From contig NZ_WJIE01000002.1 in the NCBI RefSeq assembly GCF_009649845.1, positions 372,001-436,000 of the forward strand: a stretch of 64,000 nucleotides of DNA, given 5' to 3'. Positions 5,026 through 20,209 of this stretch are shown here, piece by piece. The DNA comes from Polyangium spumosum. GTDB lineage: Bacteria; Myxococcota_A; Polyangia; Polyangiales; Polyangiaceae. How positions within the stretch are numbered: the stretch's first letter is position 1; the number at the start of each line of letters is the position of its first letter. The notes beneath the pieces were generated by a model. The model worked only from the letters and a program-made list of their open reading frames with translations, did no database searches and was not told the origin of the DNA. The translations under genes were made by a program, and so were the position numbers.

Positions 5026-5631
5026 TCACCAGGGGCGATCGCGCATCGTCTGCTTGTACTTTTCCTTGTAAAGATCGTGGCACTTCTTGCAGGAGGCCTT
5101 CGCGCCGTCGAGGTCGCCGGCCTTCGCCTTGGCCACGCCCTCGTTCGAGATGGCGGCCCAGCTCCCCATGCCGGGCGGCGACTTGCCCGCGATGTAGGCC
5201 AGGTTGTTGGCGATCTTCGTCAGGTCGCCGCTCGAGGTCGACGAGGCCATGACCGTCTTCATCCAGCCCTGCATCGGGCAGGGCTTCTGGCCCTTGGCGC
5301 CACAATCGAACGTCTTCGGACCCGCCGCCGCGCTCGCCGCAGGCGCCGCCGAGCCGGCCGCGGGAGCCGCAGAGGCCGCCGCGACCGCCGACGCCGTCGC
5401 GGAAGGCTCCACGGGGGCGCTCGCGGCGCTGTTCTCGGGCTTCGGGGCCTCGGCGCTCGGCGCGGGGGCGGCCGACGCGACCACGGGGGCCGCAGACGCC
5501 GCAGGCGGCGTGACAGCCGCGGCGCTCGACTTCGCCTCGGGCGAGGTACCTTCGTTTTTCGCCTCACCCCCGCCGCAGCCGATTGCACCCGCGAGCGCCA
5601 CGGCCGCCGCGAGGAGCACTCCCTGTCTCAT
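5026..5631 (-). CDS. Lipoprotein with C-terminal CxxCH haem-binding motif (cytochrome c'-like)
   Basis: 201 residues. The start is set by a strong AAGGAG ribosome site and a lipoprotein signal (lipobox GAIGC, Cys19). Residues 20-100 are a low-complexity Ala/Pro/Ser linker. The C-terminal ~95 residues look helical and end in CKKCH (Cys181, Cys184, His185), about 16 residues from the end. A CxxCH at the extreme C-terminus of a helical domain is the arrangement of cytochrome c'/c-556 type four-helix bundles, so a covalently bound haem and an electron-transfer or gas-binding role at the outer envelope is plausible. An axial Met or His partner could not be identified by eye. Divergent from the phosphoesterase at 5787. 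Confidence 0.7.
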   Translation of the reverse strand: MRQGVLLAAAVALAGAIGCGGGEAKNEGTSPEAKSSAAAVTPPAASAAPVVASAAPAPSAEAPKPENSAASAPVEPSATASAVAAASAAPAAGSAAPAASAAAGPKTFDCGAKGQKPCPMQGWMKTVMASSTSSGDLTKIANNLAYIAGKSPPGMGSWAAISNEGVAKAKAGDLDGAKASCKKCHDLYKEKYKQTMRDRPW

Positions 5632-5786
5632 CCTGCTCTCCTTACCTAGTGGCGAAGATCGACCTTTCTCGGCGATCCTCGCATTCCTGGTCGCCCGGCT
5701 CAAGGTCCGGCCGCGCGGGGCGAGTGGCCCCGGCATTCGACTTTGATCCGTATCCACGGCCTGATGGCAAGACAAAAAAAGTGCCG

Positions 5787-7604
5787 ATGTCTGCTCCCTC
5801 GCCGGTCCGTCCCCCGCCCCAGAAGCCCGCGCCGACTCCTCCCGACGTTCCAAAGCTGCTCTTCACGCGCGGAGGCCGCTATCCGCACGCGATCGCGTGG
5901 TTCGGGGCCCGATCGTTCTGGGGGCACCTCTGGCACCTCGCGGCGAGCGTCATCGCGACGGAAGACATCGACAGCCGCGCGTGGATGCGACCGAGCAACC
6001 CCGACACACTGACGCGAAAAGCCGCCGCCGTGCTGGGCGGTCGGCAAGGCGCGCCGACGCTCACCGAGGCGCTCGAGCGCGACGTGTGGATCGATTTCCT
6101 CGCAGACACGGGCGACTGCGTCTCCGTGAGCCAGGAGGTCGCGCGGCTCGTGTTCACGACGTACGAGGTCCCCGATCCACGAGACCCGGAAAAGAGGCTG
6201 ACCTTGCCGCGCGGAGACGTCCTGCTCTTCGGCGGAGACACGGCCTATCCGGTGGCGACGGAGCTCGAGATCCACAACCGCGTGATCGTCCCGTTCTCGC
6301 GCGTGCTGGAGGAGGTCCGGGACGGCAAACCCCGGGTGCTGCTGGGAATCCCGGGCAACCACGACTGGTACGCAGGGCTCGACGGCTTCGGGCGCATGTT
6401 CCGCGAGCGGCGCGGGACGGTGGATCTCGCGGGGACGTCGGCGCCGAACGAGGTCGTGCGGTTCGCGCAGATCGGCCACTTCATCCAGTGGGTGGAGGCG
6501 TTCCGGATCGGTCGTTATGTGAGCAAACGATCGACGCTGCCGCTCGACGGCTACGTGCCGGTGCAGGACGCGAGTTATTTCGCGCTCAGGCTCGCGCCGG
6601 GGCTCGACCTGTGGGGCGCGGATCGGCAGCTCCGCGCGGTGGACTTCGAACAACGCGCGTTCTTCGCGTCGCTCCGGCAGGAGAACCACGGCGTCGTGTT
6701 GACGATGGCGGACCCGGCGAACGCGTTCCTCGAGCCGAACCCGGCCGGGCAGCACATCGTCGACGCGCTGGATCTGCGGCTCGAAGACGACGGCGTGCTC
6801 GTGTTGACGGGCGACACGCACCACTATTGCCGCGAGCAGATCGGGCGAACGACCCACGTGACGGCCGGCGGCGGCGGCGCGTTCTTGCATCCGGCGCGGA
6901 TCATGCGGCAAGGGCTGCCGGCGCCCGCGGCGGAGTTCCCGGGGCCGAAGGCGTCGCTCGCGCTGGCGCTGCAGATCCCGTGGCAGATCGTGCACGGGCG
7001 GAGCGGGTTTCTGGTGCACGCGGCGGCCGCGCTGCTCTACGTGCCGGCGTTCTCCGCCGTGCGCTGGGGAGGCGCGCCGCCGATGGTCGTGATGCTGGCG
7101 ACCGCGGCGCTCGCGGGCTTCGTGTGCAGGCTGCTCGCCGGCTTCCGGAACCGATCGATCGCGGTGTACATGCTGGCGGCGGTCGCGGGGCTCGTGATCG
7201 GGTTCGTGCCGCTGCTCGCGCGGACGGCGTTCGCCGCGGCAGGTGGCCTCTTCGACGCGCCCCACCTCTTCGGCGCGAGGCCGTGGCTGGTCTTCGCGGT
7301 CTCGGTGTACGTGGCGACGCTGATCTTCGGCGCGTACCTGACGGCGCTGACGGTGTTCGGGATCGAGCAACACCAGGCCTTCGCGGCGCTGGCGCACCCC
7401 GGGTACAAGCACTTCGTGCGGCTCAGGGTCCGGCGCGACGGGAGCGGCACGGACGCGTGGGTGCTCGGGAAGGTGGATCCTCTGTCCGCCTCGGATCCGG
7501 TGGTCCTGGTAGACCAGTTTTCCTGGACGAACGAGGGTTTGTCGGCGGGCGCGCGCTCGGCGATGTCGGCGTCAAACGATCCGACCGAGCAGCAGCGGCG
7601 GTGA
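5787..7604 (+). CDS. Metallophosphoesterase with C-terminal membrane segments
   Basis: 605 residues. The N-terminal two-thirds show the calcineurin-like phosphoesterase metal motifs in order: GGDTAYP, GNHDWY, and a late GDTHHY. These supply Asp, Asn and His ligands for a two-metal site. After about residue 400 there are four or five hydrophobic segments, so the protein is membrane-bound, followed by a ~70-residue soluble tail. The ATG at 5787 was chosen because upstream codons give a non-conserved, Arg/Pro-rich leader. The substrate (phosphoester, nucleotide or lipid headgroup) cannot be told from sequence. Its last 33 bases overlap the convergent phosphorylase gene. Confidence 0.75.
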   Translation: MSAPSPVRPPPQKPAPTPPDVPKLLFTRGGRYPHAIAWFGARSFWGHLWHLAASVIATEDIDSRAWMRPSNPDTLTRKAAAVLGGRQGAPTLTEALERDVWIDFLADTGDCVSVSQEVARLVFTTYEVPDPRDPEKRLTLPRGDVLLFGGDTAYPVATELEIHNRVIVPFSRVLEEVRDGKPRVLLGIPGNHDWYAGLDGFGRMFRERRGTVDLAGTSAPNEVVRFAQIGHFIQWVEAFRIGRYVSKRSTLPLDGYVPVQDASYFALRLAPGLDLWGADRQLRAVDFEQRAFFASLRQENHGVVLTMADPANAFLEPNPAGQHIVDALDLRLEDDGVLVLTGDTHHYCREQIGRTTHVTAGGGGAFLHPARIMRQGLPAPAAEFPGPKASLALALQIPWQIVHGRSGFLVHAAAALLYVPAFSAVRWGGAPPMVVMLATAALAGFVCRLLAGFRNRSIAVYMLAAVAGLVIGFVPLLARTAFAAAGGLFDAPHLFGARPWLVFAVSVYVATLIFGAYLTALTVFGIEQHQAFAALAHPGYKHFVRLRVRRDGSGTDAWVLGKVDPLSASDPVVLVDQFSWTNEGLSAGARSAMSASNDPTEQQRR

Positions 7605-11966: not shown

Positions 11967-12938
11967 ATGATCGAGGTGGAGCGCCTCTCCAAGTCGTATG
12001 GCGCCTTTCGCGCCGTCTCGGATGTGTCGTTTCACGTCGAGCGGGGCGAGGTCGTGGGGTTCCTCGGGCCGAACGGCGCCGGGAAGAGCACCACGCTGCG
12101 CATGCTCGCGGGTTTCCTCGGGCCGAGCTCGGGGCGGATCCGCATCGGAGGGCACGACATCGGCGAGGAGCCGCTGCTCGCGCGGGAGAAGCTCGGGTAC
12201 ATGCCCGAGACGTCGCCGCTGTATCCGGAGATGCGGGTGCGGGAGTATCTCGCGTTCCGCGCCGAGCTGAAGCGCGTGCCGCGAGGCGCGCGGGCCAGAG
12301 CGGTCGAACGAGCGGCCGAGGAGGCGCGGGTCGACGACATGGCGGATGTGCTCGTCCGGCACCTGTCGAAGGGCTACCGGCAACGCGTCGGGCTCGCGGA
12401 CGCGCTGCTCGGGGATCCGCCGGTGCTCATCCTCGACGAGCCCACGGCGGGGCTGGATCCGAACCAGATCCGCGAGGTGCGCGAGCTCGTGCGGCGGCGC
12501 GGCAAGGATCACGCGATCCTGATCTCGACGCACATCCTGTCGGAGGTCGAGGCGACGTGCTCGCGCGCGCTCGTGGTCGCGCGAGGCAAGCTCGTGGCGT
12601 CGGGGACCATCGAGGAGCTGCGCGAAATGCGGAGGGCCTCGGGCCTGCGGATCGTGGTGCGCGGAGAGGCGGCGCGCGCGCTCGGGATCGTCCGCGCGTT
12701 GCCGGAGGTCGCGGAGGCGACGGTGGATGCGGGGCGAACGCAGGCTCCCGAGACGGCGGAGCTGCTCGTCGAGTACCAGCGCGCCGAGGGCGGGGCCGAG
12801 GTCGCCGAGAGGGTCGTCGCGGCGCTCGTGGGCGCGGGGCTCGGGGTGCGGGAGGTCGTGCCGCGCGCGGCATCGCTCGAGCAGGTCTTCTCGGAGCTCA
12901 CGCGAGGGGACGAGGAAGCGGCCGAGGTGCAGGCGTGA
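11967..12938 (+). CDS. ABC transporter ATP-binding protein (GldA-like)
   Basis: 323 residues. Complete ABC ATPase: Walker A GPNGAGKST (about residues 38-46), Q-loop region, a signature written LSKGYRQRVGLADAL, Walker B PVLILDEPTAGLDP, and switch His in STHILSEVE. The last ~100 residues form the extra domain typical of ABC-2 exporters. It is the first of four genes with 4-base overlaps: the permease, a GldG-like protein and a DUF4340 protein follow. Family knowledge links this set to the gldA/gldFG-type export unit; the substrate is unknown. Confidence 0.92.
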   Translation: MIEVERLSKSYGAFRAVSDVSFHVERGEVVGFLGPNGAGKSTTLRMLAGFLGPSSGRIRIGGHDIGEEPLLAREKLGYMPETSPLYPEMRVREYLAFRAELKRVPRGARARAVERAAEEARVDDMADVLVRHLSKGYRQRVGLADALLGDPPVLILDEPTAGLDPNQIREVRELVRRRGKDHAILISTHILSEVEATCSRALVVARGKLVASGTIEELREMRRASGLRIVVRGEAARALGIVRALPEVAEATVDAGRTQAPETAELLVEYQRAEGGAEVAERVVAALVGAGLGVREVVPRAASLEQVFSELTRGDEEAAEVQA

Positions 12939-13684
12939 AGGGGTTCTGGCCGATCTTCAAGCGTGAGCTCTTCGCGCTCTTCGTCACGCCGCTCGCCTGG
13001 GTGGTGATCACGTCGTTCCTGCTCTTGCAGGGCCTGCACTTCTTCCTGATCGTCGTGAACTTCGCGGCGGCGCCGATGGAGTCGATCGGCGACAGCGGGC
13101 CGGTGCAGGCGTTCTTCGGCCAGACGATGCTCCTCTACGTGCCGCTCCTGCTCGTCTGCCCGCTGCTCACGATGCGGCTCTTCGCCGAGGAGCGGCGCAG
13201 CGGGACGATCGAGACGTTGCTCACGGCGCCCGTGGGCACGGTGGGCGTGGTGCTGGCGAAGTACGCGGCGGCGGTCGCGACGTACGTCGTCATGTGGGCG
13301 CCGACGGTGCTCTACATCGTGATCCTCGCGCGGACGGGCGACGTCGACTGGCGGGTCGTGGGGACGAGTTACCTGTCGGTCTTCGCGATCGGCGCGGGGT
13401 ACCTGTCGATCGGGGTCATGACGAGCGCGCTCACGCAGAGCCAGCTCACGGCCGCGGTGCTCTCGGCGCTGGCGATCGCGGGGCTCTTTTTCTTCGGGTT
13501 CGCGGAGTTCATCGTGCCCGACGGGCCCGCGCACGATCTGGCGACACACGTATCCGTTTGGACACAAATGAACGACGCGTCGCGCGGGCTGCTCGACTCG
13601 CGGAGGCTCGTCTTCGACGCGACCGTCGTGCTCCTGCCGCTCTTCGTCACGGTGCGCGCCGTCGAGGCGTGGAGGTGGGGATGA
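12935..13684 (+). CDS. ABC-2 type permease (GldF-like)
   Basis: 249 residues with about six transmembrane helices. Signature regions are FKRELFALFVTPLAWVV near the start and MRLFAEERRSGTIETLLTAP, the conserved cytosolic coupling segment of GldF-like ABC-2 permeases. The GTG start overlaps the ATPase stop (GTGA), and the stop overlaps the next ATG (ATGA), so all are translationally coupled. It forms the membrane channel for the ATPase at 11967. Confidence 0.9.
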   Translation: MKGFWPIFKRELFALFVTPLAWVVITSFLLLQGLHFFLIVVNFAAAPMESIGDSGPVQAFFGQTMLLYVPLLLVCPLLTMRLFAEERRSGTIETLLTAPVGTVGVVLAKYAAAVATYVVMWAPTVLYIVILARTGDVDWRVVGTSYLSVFAIGAGYLSIGVMTSALTQSQLTAAVLSALAIAGLFFFGFAEFIVPDGPAHDLATHVSVWTQMNDASRGLLDSRRLVFDATVVLLPLFVTVRAVEAWRWG

Positions 13685-15354
13685 GCGAGCCGAAGAAGCC
13701 CAGGAAGGGCAAGAAGGCGCGCAGGGACGAGGCCACGACCTCGGCAGGCGGGAAGGCCCCGGCCGTGAAGGCGCCCGCGCCGCGCGACGAAACGACGTCC
13801 GAAGCGCCCGCCGGCACGAGCGCGGGGACGAAGCTCGGCGCGCTCGTCGGGCTCGTGGCGGCGATGGTGCTGGCGGTGCTCGTGAACGTGGTCGCGGCGC
13901 GGCACTACGAGCGCTTCGATCTCACGAAGGGCGGGCTCTACACGTTGAGCCCCGCGACAGAGCAGACGCTCGCGGCGCTCGGCGAGCCCATCCGCGTCGA
14001 CGTGCTCTTGCCCGCGGGTGATCCGCTCACGCTCTCGATCCGGCACCTGCTCGAGGCCTACCGCAGCGAGACGACGCGCCTCGAGGTGCACTTCACGGAC
14101 CCCGATCGCCACGCGGCCGAGTTCCTCGCGGTGCAGCGCAAGTACGACGAGCGCGTCGTCGACGGTCGGGTGGTGACCGAGGCGGCGATCGTCATCACGC
14201 GCGGCGATCGTGTCCAGTTCATCGCGCCGCGGGATCTGGTGGAGGTCGAGGACGAGAACGACGTGCGGGCGCGGCCACGCCTCGAGCAGGCGCTCACCGC
14301 GGCGATCCGCGCCGTCGTGTCGACGGACAGGCCGAAGATCTGCTTCACGACGGGGCACGACGAGAAGTCGATCGAGACGGGCGGCAGCGGCCTCGCGCCG
14401 CTCCGGGAGCGGCTCGAGAAGAACGGGCACGAGGTCGCGACGATCGAGGCTCGTGAGAGCGCCGAGGACAAGGACGAGGCGCGCGCGCCGTACGCCGGTT
14501 GTCGCGTGGTCGTGGTCGCGGGGCCGGGTCAGCGCTTCTCCGAGGCGGCCACGAAGAAGCTCGAGGCCTTCGTCGAGCAGGGCGGCAACGTTCTCGTCGC
14601 GGCCGGGCCCGTGCCCGACCAGGGCGACCAGCGGTACCTCGATCTCGGCCTGGATCCGCTGCTCGATCGCTTCGGGATCGCGCTCTCGCGGGACTTCGTG
14701 TTCGAGACCGACGCGCGCCTGCGCGCCGTGCGTGGGTACGGCGAGACGTTCTTGCCGATCGCCAAGCCGCATCCCATCACCGAGGGGCTGATCCGCGCCG
14801 AACAGCAGGGCCTCGGCGCGGTCATGACGGTCGCGAGCTCGCTCCAGAAGACGGGCAAGGGCGCCGCCGCGGTGTCGCCTCTGCTCGAGACGAGCGAGGA
14901 CGCGTTCGGCATGGTCGACTTCTTCACGTGGGCGAAGAACCCCTCGGAGCCCGCGCCGAACGACGCGGATCACAAGGGGCCGCTCACGGTCGCGTTCGCC
15001 GCCGAGTCGCCGAAGCGCCCGGGCGCCGAGCGTGGCGCGAGGGCCGTCGTCATCGGCTCGGCGAGCCCCATGATGGGCGAGAACTGGCAGAGCGACGAGC
15101 TGCGCGGCACGGCGATCTTCGTCGAGAGCGCGATCGCCTGGCTCGCCTCCGCCCCCGCGCCGCTCGACATCCCGAACAAGCCCGCCTTCACCGCGGGCCT
15201 GCGCATGAGCGAGGGCTCGCTCGCCTCGATCTTCCGCTACGTGGTGGTGTTCATCCCGCTCGCGGCCGTGCTCACCGGCATCGCCGTGCACCTCCGGCGC
15301 CGCGCGACGGAGCGGCGAGGGACACGCAAGGAGAAGGAGCGAGCGCCCGAATGA
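13681..15354 (+). CDS. GldG-like ABC-associated auxiliary protein
   Basis: 557 residues. A Lys/Ala/Pro-rich cytosolic N-terminus (about 50 residues) is followed by one transmembrane helix, a large extracytoplasmic domain and a final helix near residues 520-545 with a basic tail. The domain begins with RFDLTKGGLYTLSPATEQTL, the hallmark of the ABC_transp_aux/GldG family, and contains a ThuA/DUF4350-like segment (ICFTTGHDEKS, VVVVAGPGQRFSEAA, GGNVLVAAGP). It is coupled by ATGA overlaps on both sides. It probably assembles with the ATPase and permease as the extracytoplasmic part of the complex. Confidence 0.88.
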   Translation: MSEPKKPRKGKKARRDEATTSAGGKAPAVKAPAPRDETTSEAPAGTSAGTKLGALVGLVAAMVLAVLVNVVAARHYERFDLTKGGLYTLSPATEQTLAALGEPIRVDVLLPAGDPLTLSIRHLLEAYRSETTRLEVHFTDPDRHAAEFLAVQRKYDERVVDGRVVTEAAIVITRGDRVQFIAPRDLVEVEDENDVRARPRLEQALTAAIRAVVSTDRPKICFTTGHDEKSIETGGSGLAPLRERLEKNGHEVATIEARESAEDKDEARAPYAGCRVVVVAGPGQRFSEAATKKLEAFVEQGGNVLVAAGPVPDQGDQRYLDLGLDPLLDRFGIALSRDFVFETDARLRAVRGYGETFLPIAKPHPITEGLIRAEQQGLGAVMTVASSLQKTGKGAAAVSPLLETSEDAFGMVDFFTWAKNPSEPAPNDADHKGPLTVAFAAESPKRPGAERGARAVVIGSASPMMGENWQSDELRGTAIFVESAIAWLASAPAPLDIPNKPAFTAGLRMSEGSLASIFRYVVVFIPLAAVLTGIAVHLRRRATERRGTRKEKERAPE

Positions 15355-17615
15355 GCCTCGCGAAGACCACGAAAAAACACGCGACCACGATCGTCCTCTG
15401 CGCCCTGGCGATCGGGGCGGGCGCGTATGTGTTCGTCGTGGATCGGGGCTCGGTCACGACCGAGGAGGCCGAGCAACGTAAAAAAAACGTGCTGCTCGCC
15501 TGGAGGCCGGACGAGATCACGGAGCTCACGTTCGAGCAGGGTGGCTCGTCCGCGAAGCTCACGCGCACGCCGCCCGACGCGCTCGGGCAACGTTTTTGGG
15601 AGGTCACGATCGGGGGCGAGCGGTTCCCCGCGGAGGCGCAGATCGTCGATCAGCTCCTCGGCACGCTCGAGTTCGCCACGCACGAGCGGATCCTCGCGCC
15701 GGACAGCGTGGATCACGCGGCGCTCGGCCTCGACGCGCCCCGCGCGCGCATCGTCGTGGTCACGCCGGGACGCTCCTCCACGCTCGCGATCGGCGGCCCT
15801 GCGCCGACACCGGCCGGCGCCGCGGTCGTCGAGGTCCACGAGGGGGATCGCGCCTCGTTCCAGGTGATCACGAAGGAGCTCGTCACGGCGCTCGTGATCG
15901 ATCCGAGCTCGCTCCGATCGAAGGATCTCCTCCCCTACCCGACGTCCGACGTCACGCGCTTCGAGATCGAAAACCCGAGCGGCAAGTACCACCTCGCGCG
16001 CGGGCCGAACGGTGACGCCCTGAAGCTCGACGGCCCCGCGAAGGAGGCTGGCCGGCGCGCCTCCCGCGCCGCGACGGACGAGCTCCTCGATACGCTCTCG
16101 CGCCTGCGGGCCGAGGCCTTCCTCTCGGACGAAGCCGCGCGCCGCGCCTCCACGCCCGCCGCGACGCTCACGCTGATCCCCAAGGACGAGGCCAAACCCA
16201 AGGGCACCCTCGTCCTCGGCGGTGCGTGCCCAGACAAACCCGACCTCGTCGTCGCGTTGCAGACGGCCCCCGCCCGCGCCGCGGCCTGCGTCTCGAAGGG
16301 CTTCCTCGACGCGCTCTCCAGGCCCGAGAGCGCGTTCGTGGATCACGCCGCGTTCTTCGCGACGATCGACGAGGTCCACGAGATCACCCTCACCGCCGGC
16401 GATCGCCGCATCGATCTCGCGCGCAAGGGCACGGGCTTCCACCAGCGCGCCCCCGAGGATCGCGAGATCGAGGGCGACACTGGCCGCGTCTTCCTCGAGT
16501 CGATCCTCGCCCTCCGCGCGAGCGATTTCCTCACGACCGGCGATCGCGCCTCGCTCGGCCTCGACCCGCCGCAGGGCAAGGTCCGCGTCGTCTCGGTGCT
16601 CCCGTCGCGGAGCCCGGACGGCGGCGACGACGATCGCGTCGAGGAGCTCCTCGTCGGCAAACCCCAGGGCGAGATCGTCCCCGTCCTCCGGAGCTACGAC
16701 GGCGCCGTGCTCGCGCTCCCCGCCGATCGAGCTCGCGCGCTCTTCCCGAGCAAGATCACCCTGCGCAGCCCGACCGTGATCGACGCGCCGGAGACGAGCC
16801 TACGCGCCCTGCGGATCACCGAAGGCGACCGCGTTCAGCAGCTCGAGCGCACGGCCGAGGGGAGCTTCGCGCTCGAAGAACCTCGCGGGAAGAACCTCGC
16901 GGCCGATCTCGGCTTCGGCACCGAGCTCGCCACTGCGCTCTTGCCCTTGCGCGTCGAGCGTTTTGTCGCCGAGCGCGACGACGGATCGTTTGGCCTCGCG
17001 AGCCCGCGCCTCGTCATCGAGGCCGATCTCTCCGCAGGCGGCGACGCCGGCGCGCGTACCGTGCGCCTGCTCATCGGCGCCCCCACGACGGGCGGCTCCT
17101 TCGCGCGCCTCGACGGCGACGACGCCGTCTTCGTCATCGACCCCAAGATCGAGTCCGCCGCGGGGAAATGGTTGCTCGATCGATCGATCTTCACCTTCGA
17201 CGTGGCGGAGATCGTCAAGGTCACCGTCACTCCTTCCGATCGACGCAAGCCGCCCCTCGTCCTCGAGCGCGCGGGGGACACGCTGCGCATCCAGGGCGAC
17301 GCCGCGGCCACCACGAAGGCCGCCGCGATCCGCGACGCGCTCGCCGACCTCGTCCCCGAAGCCGCCGTCAGCGTCGGCCCGCCCCGCAAGGAAGAGGGCC
17401 TCGACCCGCCCGCCGTCGTGATCACCATCGAACGCAGGGGCCACGATCCCGATGCCCCCGCCACCGTCGACCCCGAGCGCACCCTGCGCATCTCCCTCGG
17501 CGCCGGCGACGCGTACCGCGGGACGAACGTCACCTACGCCCGCCGCGACGGCGTCGGCGCCACCTACGCCATCGCGCAAGCCAAGACGCGAATCTTCCTG
17601 GACGCAGCGCGCTAA
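15351..17615 (+). CDS. DUF4340 membrane-anchored protein
   Basis: 754 residues with one N-terminal transmembrane helix (about residues 10-30) and a long extracytoplasmic region built of repeated DUF4340-like blocks. Examples are ITELTFEQGG and FATHERILAP near the start, DEVHEITLTAGDRRIDLARKG in the middle and VAEIVKVTV late. DUF4340 genes commonly sit beside GldG-like genes, and here the ATG overlaps the gldG-like stop. It is the last gene of the operon. A weak hairpin (CCTCCGA / TCGGAGG, 17630-17655) lies 15 bases after the stop without a T-run. Molecular role unknown. Confidence 0.85.
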   Translation: MSLAKTTKKHATTIVLCALAIGAGAYVFVVDRGSVTTEEAEQRKKNVLLAWRPDEITELTFEQGGSSAKLTRTPPDALGQRFWEVTIGGERFPAEAQIVDQLLGTLEFATHERILAPDSVDHAALGLDAPRARIVVVTPGRSSTLAIGGPAPTPAGAAVVEVHEGDRASFQVITKELVTALVIDPSSLRSKDLLPYPTSDVTRFEIENPSGKYHLARGPNGDALKLDGPAKEAGRRASRAATDELLDTLSRLRAEAFLSDEAARRASTPAATLTLIPKDEAKPKGTLVLGGACPDKPDLVVALQTAPARAAACVSKGFLDALSRPESAFVDHAAFFATIDEVHEITLTAGDRRIDLARKGTGFHQRAPEDREIEGDTGRVFLESILALRASDFLTTGDRASLGLDPPQGKVRVVSVLPSRSPDGGDDDRVEELLVGKPQGEIVPVLRSYDGAVLALPADRARALFPSKITLRSPTVIDAPETSLRALRITEGDRVQQLERTAEGSFALEEPRGKNLAADLGFGTELATALLPLRVERFVAERDDGSFGLASPRLVIEADLSAGGDAGARTVRLLIGAPTTGGSFARLDGDDAVFVIDPKIESAAGKWLLDRSIFTFDVAEIVKVTVTPSDRRKPPLVLERAGDTLRIQGDAAATTKAAAIRDALADLVPEAAVSVGPPRKEEGLDPPAVVITIERRGHDPDAPATVDPERTLRISLGAGDAYRGTNVTYARRDGVGATYAIAQAKTRIFLDAAR

Positions 17616-17817
17616 CGCGGCCGCTCGATCCTCCGAAGGACGGAATCCTCGGAGGTGCGTCGCAGCCGATGGGGATAGTCCGGAGCACTGTTCGGACGCC
17701 CTCCCCTGCCGCGACATGCAGGAAATCGCCTGGTCTTTGCGCGAGCCAGGATCCCGGCGAACAAGAAAGCGCAAGGGTGGACCCTCGCGAAGAAAAGAAG
17801 GTAGACTCCGTCAGCCC

Positions 17818-18690
17818 ATGTCCACCGACCCGCGATCCAACCTGGCCGGCCTCGCCGCGCTTCAGGCTGAAACCCTCGGAAGCCCCGACGTCTGCGTCGC
17901 CGTCCTCGATGGCCCGGTCGATCTCGCGCACCCGGCCTTCCGCGGCGCGAACGTCACGGCCCTCGAGATGCCGGTGTCCAGCGACGAGGCGGCCGATCGC
18001 ACGCACGGCACCCACGTCACGAGCCTCGTGTTCGGCCAGCCGGGCGGCCCCGCGAAGGGTATCGCTCCGAAGGCGAAGGGCATCGTCGTCCCCGTGCACA
18101 ACTTCCGCCCGGAGACGAGCGCGCCCGCGGGCAACCCGCCGGATCTCGCGAAGGGCATCCGCGACGCGATCGCCGCCGGCGCGCACGTCGTCACCATGCA
18201 CGGCGGCGCCCTCTCGCCCGACATGCTCGACGCGCTCGCCAAGGCGCTCGCCAAAGCGGCCGAGAAGAACGTGCTCGTCGTGGTCGCCGCCGAGGGTGAC
18301 GGCAACGAGCACTTCCACGTGCCCACGGCCGCCTCCACCGTGCTCGCCGTCGCGGCCGAGGACGCCGAGGGCAAGCTGCTCGACTTCGGCATGTGGGGCC
18401 CGACCTACCGCGACAGCGGCATCGTCGCGCCGGGGGAAGGCCTCATTGGCGCGGCTCCGGGCGGTGGAACCGTCGCGCAGAGCGGCGCCACCTTCGCCGC
18501 CGCCATGGTCGCGGGCATCGCCGCGCTCCTGCTCAGCGTGCAGATCGCCCGCGGAAAGCAGGCAGATCCACGCGCCGTCCGCGCGGCCCTGCTCCAGAGC
18601 GCCCAGCCCCTCTCGATGGCCCAGAGCGAGCGCGGCAAGGGCGTCCTCCGCGGCCGCCTCGACGTCGCCGCCGCCCTGAAGCTCGTTTGA
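17818..18690 (+). CDS. PatA-like S8 subtilase, probably catalytically altered
   Basis: 290 residues without a signal peptide, so cytosolic. It reads through as a subtilase of the cyanobactin PatA/PatG type: Asp31 in VAVLDGPVD, His63 in HGTHV, GIAPKAKGIVVPV, the HFHVPTAASTVLAVAA block and APGEGLIGAAPGG. The nucleophile block, normally SGTSFA, reads SGATFA, so Thr225 (ACC, 18490-18492) stands where the Ser should be, and the oxyanion Asn position is Gly160. Asp and His remain. The protein is therefore either a Thr-nucleophile variant or a pseudoprotease with a binding role. It stands alone; no precursor peptide gene was seen nearby. It ends 184 bases before pyrC. Confidence 0.82.
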   Translation: MSTDPRSNLAGLAALQAETLGSPDVCVAVLDGPVDLAHPAFRGANVTALEMPVSSDEAADRTHGTHVTSLVFGQPGGPAKGIAPKAKGIVVPVHNFRPETSAPAGNPPDLAKGIRDAIAAGAHVVTMHGGALSPDMLDALAKALAKAAEKNVLVVVAAEGDGNEHFHVPTAASTVLAVAAEDAEGKLLDFGMWGPTYRDSGIVAPGEGLIGAAPGGGTVAQSGATFAAAMVAGIAALLLSVQIARGKQADPRAVRAALLQSAQPLSMAQSERGKGVLRGRLDVAAALKLV

Positions 18691-18874: not shown

Positions 18875-20205
18875 ATGCTCGGTCCCCAGAGAAAGGACGG
18901 CCTGCTCGTCATCGCCTCGGTGCGCGCCGTCGATCCAGGCGCGAACCTCGACGCGATCGTGGACGTCGTCATCGAAGGTGGAACCATCACGCGTATCGGC
19001 GCGGGCGCCGCGACGAAGGAGATCCTCGCCTCCGAGCGAGCGCGCGTGCTCTCCGGCGAAGGGCTCCTGCTCCTGCCGGCCTTCGTGGACCTGCACGCCC
19101 ACCTGCGCGAGCCGGGCCAGGAGTACAAGGAAGACATCGCGTCCGGCCTCGCCGCCGCGGCCGCGGGCGGCTTCGCGCACGTCTGCGCCATGCCGAACAC
19201 GCGCCCCGTCAACGACACGCGCAGCATCACCGAGGCCATGATCACCAAGGCGCGATCGATCGAGGGCCCCGCGCTGCACCCGATCGGCGCGATCACCCTC
19301 GGCCAGAAGGGCTCGGAGCTCGTCGAGATGGCCGACCTCAAGGACGCGGGCGCCGTCGCCGTCTCCGACGACGGCCGCTGCGTCACCTCGAGCGCCGTCA
19401 TGCGCCGCGCCCTCGAGTACGCCGCGAACTTCGACCTGCCCGTCATCCAGCACGCCGAGGATCACGCCCTCACCGAGGGCGCGCTCATGCACGAAGGGGC
19501 CGTCTCCACGCGGCTCGGCCTGCGCGGCTGGCCCCGCGTCGCCGAGGACATCATCGTCGCCCGCGACGTGCTGCTCGCCGAGGTGACCGGCGCCAAGTAC
19601 CACGTCGCCCACGTCTCCTCGCGTGGCGCCGTCCGCATCATCCGCGAGGCCAAGGCCCGCGGCATCCGCGTGACGGCCGAGGTCACGCCGCACCACCTCA
19701 CGCTCACCGACGCCTCGGTGATCGGCTACGACACCGCCTGCCGCGTGAACCCGCCGCTGCGCGAGCCCGAGGACGTCGCCGCGCTCTGCGAGGCCCTCGC
19801 CGACGGCACGATCGACGCCGTGGCCACCGACCACGCGCCGCACGCCTCGCTGGAGAAGGACTGCGAGTTCGCCGAGGCCGCGCCCGGCATGATCGGCCTC
19901 GAGCTCGTGGTGCCGCTGCTGCTCGCCCGCGTGCGTGAGGGCGTGCTCCCGCTCGCGCGGCTCATCGACGCGCTCACCGCCGCGCCGGCCCGCATCGTGG
20001 GCCTCACGGCCCCGAGCTTGCGCGAGGGCGCCCTCGCCGAGCTTTGCCTCGTGAACCTTGAGAAACACTGGACCGTGGAGCCCGCGCGCCTTCGTTCGAA
20101 GAGCAAGAACACACCTTTCCTCGGCAAGCCCGTCACGGGCTCGGTCGAGCTCACCATGGCTGCGGGCCGCGTCGTGCACGACGTCCTGGCCCAGGGAGAG
20201 ACACG

Positions 20206-20209
<4 letters not shown>
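18875..20209 (+). CDS. pyrC: Dihydroorotase
   Basis: 444 residues, the length of class I (type) dihydroorotases. The zinc motif DLHAHLREPG (His74, His76) follows a metal-dependent hydrolase N-terminus; HAEDH, HVSSRGAV and ATDHAPH supply further ligands and the catalytic Asp. The enzyme closes carbamoyl-aspartate to dihydroorotate in de novo pyrimidine synthesis. The ATG at 18875 follows AGAGGGCGGGCG. Its stop overlaps the carA start by 4 bases, so two early pyrimidine steps are co-expressed. pyrB and carB are not in the window. Confidence 0.95.

Follow-up and report, generated by a model that had tools for sequence, protein, structure and literature searches.

A PatA-like subtilase conserved in Polyangium, with replaced nucleophile and oxyanion residues, is probably a pseudoprotease

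Results

Gene and genomic context

The window analyzed here (the whole stretch of 64,000 nucleotides from Polyangium spumosum) contains, at positions 17818-18690 of the forward strand, a gene for a PatA-like protein of the S8 (subtilase) family, 290 amino acids long (ATG at 17818, TGA at 18690), which we regard as a putative pseudoprotease. It is preceded on the same strand by an open frame (14499-17615) that belongs to an ABC (Gld-like) transporter block and holds a DUF4340 protein, whose gene starts within that frame, near 15351. Downstream lie a dihydroorotase gene (pyrC, 18878-20209, forward strand) and then carA and rimO, housekeeping genes that we presume to be these three by similarity. 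The non-coding stretch ahead of the start codon, and the start itself, are conserved in Polyangium. Upstream of the gene there is also an inverted repeat, GTCCG-N10-CGGAC (GTCCGGAGCACTGTTCGGAC, 17678-17697, not assigned to a strand), with at most one difference among the six Polyangium genomes, which is a possible operator or terminator. A regulon for this repeat was considered and rejected, as it is present in single copy, a genome search allowing up to 2 mismatches giving no other match.

The order DUF4340 - gene - pyrC - carA - rimO was identical in the five other Polyangium regions. In sister genera pyrC is kept, but both the gene and the upstream DUF4340/Gld block are missing beside it (0 of 28 non-Polyangium pyrC loci, some of which are ended by the contig), and the gene with this block was found in none of four longer regions from related genera. 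The ABC transporter/GldG-like/DUF4340 block (11967-17615) was missing from the corresponding position in each of four related genera. Judging by the gene orders compared, this arrangement of the block beside the gene is specific to Polyangium. Because the whole upstream block differs between genera, no insertion boundary can be drawn cleanly.

A G(L/V)E(A/P) motif of precursor peptides is given in PMC10885120. Of the 74 small ORFs found in the roughly 10 kb on each side of the gene, a single one, antisense inside the DUF4340 gene, has a precursor-type motif, G(L/V/I)E(A/P), in agreement with the initial annotation, which had noted no precursor gene nearby. No RiPP genes were seen nearby, and none of the gene neighbours points to a binding partner. 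Elsewhere in the genome of the window, three YcaO proteins scored above the Pfam cut-off, on contigs C5, C3 and C18 (L085, L086 and L087, respectively), and azole- or thioamide-type peptide modification may take place there.

Family assignment and predicted structure

The product matched the Pfam family Peptidase_S8 (E 7e-26), and its best family was TIGR03895 (protease_PatA; E 3e-62), over profile positions 1-227 of 606 and with a score of 211 bits, under the curated cut-off of 421, which applies to the whole protein. It appears to be a bare subtilase domain, apparently devoid of signal peptide and propeptide. The PatA/PatG C-terminal part is missing, the ORF stopping at residue 290, and the seven full-length annotated PatA-like relatives (L024-L029 and L078) measured 612-923 aa; in one of them (L025), this part contains PatG_D and PatG_C, both lacking in the Polyangium protein. 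The closest solved relatives were PagA (4h6w) and PatA (3zxx/4h6v), and the initial assignment to the PatA-like S8 subtilases is thereby borne out by Pfam, TIGR03895 and the nearest structures alike.

In the Streptomyces plasmid loci L025, L026, L028 and L029, the PatA-like gene is followed, about 0-3 kb downstream, by tandem small ORFs, mostly of 56-73 aa. They share a common leader resembling LxMPxQxPPxDR, followed by GVEA/GLEA/GIEP and by variable, often hydrophobic tails, and they resemble precursors of the cyanobactin type, here in actinomycetes; of the three that were scanned, one weakly matched a known family, TIGR04446 (E 0.05).

An AlphaFold2 model of the Polyangium protein built from 76 sequences reached a pLDDT of 85.4 and a pTM of 0.90 (a model from just six sequences, of which five were near-identical, had a pLDDT of 37.7 and was set aside). 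The model aligned with PagA at Z 42.4 (rmsd 1.6 over 271 residues), with PatA at Z 38.4 and with subtilisin BPN' entries at Z of about 34, and Foldseek agreed with a subtilisin fold of the PagA/PatA type. The PatA-type S8 subtilisin fold is predicted to be intact and the domain whole; the shared fold is evidence of a whole domain, not of function. Relative to PatA and PagA (TIGR03895; 4h6w, 3zxx/3zxy and 4h6v), the protein is alike in S8 subfamily and fold (41-47% domain identity, Z 36-42), but it has no catalytic Ser, oxyanion Asn, Cys86, Cys163, Cys165, C-terminal part or nearby RiPP genes. It has the PatA fold, yet it is not classed as a PatA protease, because the Asp-His-Ser triad is incomplete (Asp31 and His63 present, Thr225 replacing Ser), the score is under the family cut-off, the C-terminal part is absent and the gene context is not that of a PatA protease.

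Active-site residues

According to the alignments, the codons of the catalytic acid Asp31 (17908-17910) and of the catalytic base His63 (18004-18006) are kept. At the remaining positions considered, His94 (18097-18099) stands in place of Phe/Leu (HMMER puts a two-residue gap elsewhere here), His128 (18199-18201) in place of the Ser125-equivalent, Glu159-Gly160 (18292-18297) in place of the oxyanion Gly-Asn, and Ala224-Thr225 (18487-18492) in place of Thr or Ser followed by the nucleophilic Ser, all on the forward strand. The initial placements of Asp31, His63, Gly160 and Thr225 were reproduced exactly, and no Ser was found at an alternative aligned position; to these residues the present analysis adds the replacements at 94, 128, 159 and 224, the loss of four Cys and the missing C-terminal part. 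Position 94 is presumably that of subtilisin Leu96, in the S2 pocket (subtilisin numbering). From the same numbering we assume that the gained histidines lie near one another, and we take the S1/S2 wall positions that contact the peptide in active enzymes to be those now occupied by His.

PMC11593635 divides the subtilase core into two zones, an acid/base one centred on Asp32 and His64 and a nucleophile/oxyanion (NucOxyCHO) one comprising Thr220-Ser221, Ala152-Asn155 and the segment of Ser125; Thr220 organizes the Gly154-Asn155 turn, and roles of Ser125, Asn155 and Ser221 are also described there. Ala224 is the Thr220-equivalent, so that the organizing Thr is gone from the Polyangium protein.

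The PatA-like comparison set comprised 22 sequences (14 from the same class as the Pirellulaceae record L019, seven from cyanobacterial/Streptomyces plasmids, and one C-terminal piece of a canonical Polyangium gene). A partial sequence with Ser and Asn (L182), two plasmid ORFs incomplete at one end (L079 and L080) and the N-terminal piece of the PatA-like copy of genome G005 were left out of it, and a misaligned PatG row (L078g), the source of single odd letters in the first alignment of Polyangium and its relatives, was dropped. The broader S8 set of 71 sequences consisted of 70 of 81 viral loci plus L019, after duplicates and L135 (internal stop; has Ser) had been dropped, the viral loci being drawn from the best 80 of 155 relatives. 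The viral-contig matches were ordinary Ser subtilases and served as controls; the search of phages for relatives of the gene itself gave no match. Because the search patterns of the viral loci contain HGTH and a [SH]-containing CHO motif, His63 and Ser128 were partly selected in this set; positions 159, 160, 224 and 225 lie outside the patterns.

Ser225, Ser128 and Gly159 were present in all 22 PatA-like relatives and Asn160 in 21, the exception (L181) looking like a local alignment shift; position 94 was Phe or Tyr in each of the 21 sequences having a letter there. In the other S8 sequences (70 viral-contig sequences and L019, from the best 80 of 155), Ser225, Asn160, Ser128, Gly159 and Thr224 were each found in 71/71. 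The combination of Thr225 and Gly160 is thus as unusual within S8 as had been supposed, Ser225 being universal in both sets. Four mostly conserved Cys of the relatives (Cys86 in 21/21, Cys147 in 16/22, Cys163 in 20/22 and Cys165 in 19/22) are absent in Polyangium.

At a conservation threshold of at least 90%, 66 columns were conserved among the 22 PatA-like sequences, 14 of which were altered in all six Polyangium sequences. The changes affected five of the six NucOxyCHO columns (N126T, S128H, G159E, N160G and S225T) versus nine of the 60 elsewhere (Fisher one-sided p 0.0012), and none of the five acid/base-zone columns. With the 71-sequence set (from the best 80 of 155 relatives) the enrichment was weaker (5/7 versus 12/37, p 0.066; p 0.28 at the 75% threshold), and it depends on the comparison set chosen.

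These patterns bear on the idea of a Thr-based variant, raised in the initial annotation, by which the protein would be an active protease or transamidase with Thr225 as nucleophile, the Asp31-His63 pair, and an oxyanion hole of backbone amides alone. The oxyanion Asn is not strictly required throughout the subtilases, proprotein convertase 2 being a case with Asp at that position. Moreover, Thr bears a hydroxyl, and Asp and His are kept in 6/6 Polyangium sequences. Nevertheless, Thr is used by 0/22 of the PatA-like and 0/71 of the other S8 sequences (from the best 80 of 155), five core positions are altered together, including Glu and His at the Gly and the Ser125-equivalent invariant in both sets, and the protein also lacks the C-terminal part and the four Cys that are mostly conserved in its relatives. 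A Thr-based protease is not supported, because the whole nucleophile/oxyanion half has changed, not only Ser to Thr, and we consider it improbable.

Conservation and selection in Polyangium

Orthologues with 94-97% identity were found in 6/6 Polyangium genomes. Order-wide, the gene was present in six of 183 genomes, Polyangium only, and in the phylum sample four of 377 genomes matched, all four of them Polyangium. Identity to the window protein was similar to that seen for the neighbours pyrC and rimO, and higher than that of DUF4340. Thr225, Gly160, Glu159, Ala224, His128 and His94 were common to all six sequences, in which Asp31 and His63 were also kept, single-residue conservation having little power here because the six orthologues are so close. 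Sequencing error as the source of Thr225 and Gly160 was ruled out by the agreement of the six genomes. The replacement is genus-wide, a conserved variant and not a mutation of a single strain. As to whether relatives keep the Ser, on which the initial annotation had made the idea of a conserved variant depend, those within Polyangium do not, in favour of that idea, and those outside the genus do.

Pairwise dN/dS ranged from 0.100 to 0.261 (15 pairs from the six Polyangium; dS 0.09-0.21), and the reading frame was open in 6/6, with a length of 290 or 292 aa. In the PatA-like tree, the stem branch to Polyangium measured 1.34 changes per column versus a median end branch of 0.3. One genome, G005, carries a second, canonical PatA-like gene (L021, about 5157-6025, reverse strand), which, unlike the window gene, has Ser, Asn and a C-terminal extension, and which is broken across two reading frames (a frameshift or an assembly error). 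A decaying pseudogene of a PatA-like protease, with stops still to come, would be in keeping with the lost active site, the missing C-terminal part, the long stem branch and the split of this separate copy over two frames, but it is made very improbable by the open frames of nearly constant length, the dN/dS values of 0.10-0.26, the conserved upstream stretch and start, and the kept synteny. Catalytic residues are replaced in a conserved lineage under selection, as would be expected of an S8 pseudoprotease.

Discussion

The gene is best explained as encoding a genus-specific, functional pseudoprotease derived from a PatA-like protease, which has probably lost catalysis and been maintained for non-catalytic binding. 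A PatA-like protease gene would have entered or arisen in the Polyangium ancestor, and its C-terminal part and nucleophile/oxyanion machinery would have been lost along the long stem branch. In all six genomes the nucleophile/oxyanion half is replaced and the acid/base half kept, under purifying selection and with near constancy of the gene; the result would be a cytoplasmic subtilisin fold of the PatA type that serves binding without peptide-bond chemistry. From the sequence we infer that proteolysis is lost, because Thr is a bulkier nucleophile, no oxyanion side chain is left, Ala occupies the position of Thr220, which organizes the oxyanion loop, and Glu and His stand in for invariant Gly and Ser. 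The pseudoprotease option of the initial annotation is thus favoured.

Since the protein is near-unchanged in six relatives and half of the cutting machinery is replaced, it probably binds rather than cuts, and the remodelled cleft (Asp31, His63, His94, His128, Glu159 and Thr225) may accommodate a ligand, be it a small molecule, a metal, a peptide or a protein partner. The kept Asp-His pair, with His gained at 94 and 128 and Glu at 159, would fit a polar or metal-binding pocket better than a drifting remnant. The perfect retention of Asp31 and His63, on the other hand, counts against a binding-only reading, as a mere scaffold would not need both.

As a special case of the pseudoprotease explanation, the protein could be a peptide-binding module for a PatA-type leader or cleavage motif, escorting or protecting the peptide. 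We hold this to be possible but somewhat doubtful, as the S1/S2 wall positions are now His and a gene for such a peptide is missing from the about 10 kb on either side, the single motif among the 74 small ORFs being antisense. It is nonetheless consistent with a predicted PatA-like fold whose groove elements are intact, with the tandem small ORFs bearing GVEA/GLEA motifs that adjoin canonical Streptomyces relatives, and with the peptide located near the groove in the crystals of MamO (PMC4794232).

A more speculative and rather unlikely proposal, made by analogy, is that the former active site has become a transition-metal site for sensing, buffering or new metal-dependent chemistry. Candidate ligands would be the Asp31-His63 pair, His94 (S2 pocket) and His128 (Ser125-equivalent), with Glu159 or Thr225. 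MamO of magnetotactic bacteria, a pseudoprotease of S1/HtrA fold, likewise has Thr at the nucleophile and Glu at the conserved oxyanion-hole Gly, with His and Asp retained (PMC4794232); the same source places its metal on a surface di-His in the crystal structure, whereas metal binding in Polyangium is hypothetical. MamO is unrelated in fold (trypsin-like), that of the Polyangium protein being predicted as subtilisin-like.

Within S8, few pseudoproteases have a demonstrated role; in the literature searched these were CspC and CspA of Clostridioides difficile. Their degenerate active site and non-catalytic role parallel what is proposed here (PMC6636752). CspC is an established S8 pseudoprotease that lost His and Ser (T170 and G485) and kept Asp, whereas the Polyangium protein keeps both Asp and His; CspC also has a prodomain and a jelly-roll insertion, unlike the bare 290-aa domain, which aligns end to end with PatA/PagA. 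Neither a Thr-nucleophile S8 protease nor a PatA-like pseudoprotease of Polyangium turned up in the open-licence literature searched.

A PatA-derived pseudoprotease with the acid/base pair kept would offer a clean natural test of what becomes of the subtilisin fold after loss of catalysis, and of whether, as the case of MamO suggests, binders arise repeatedly from proteases by way of Thr together with an oxyanion-hole Glu. If the metal site were true, the protein would be an S8 counterpart of MamO, converged on a Thr at the nucleophile position and a Glu beside the oxyanion hole.
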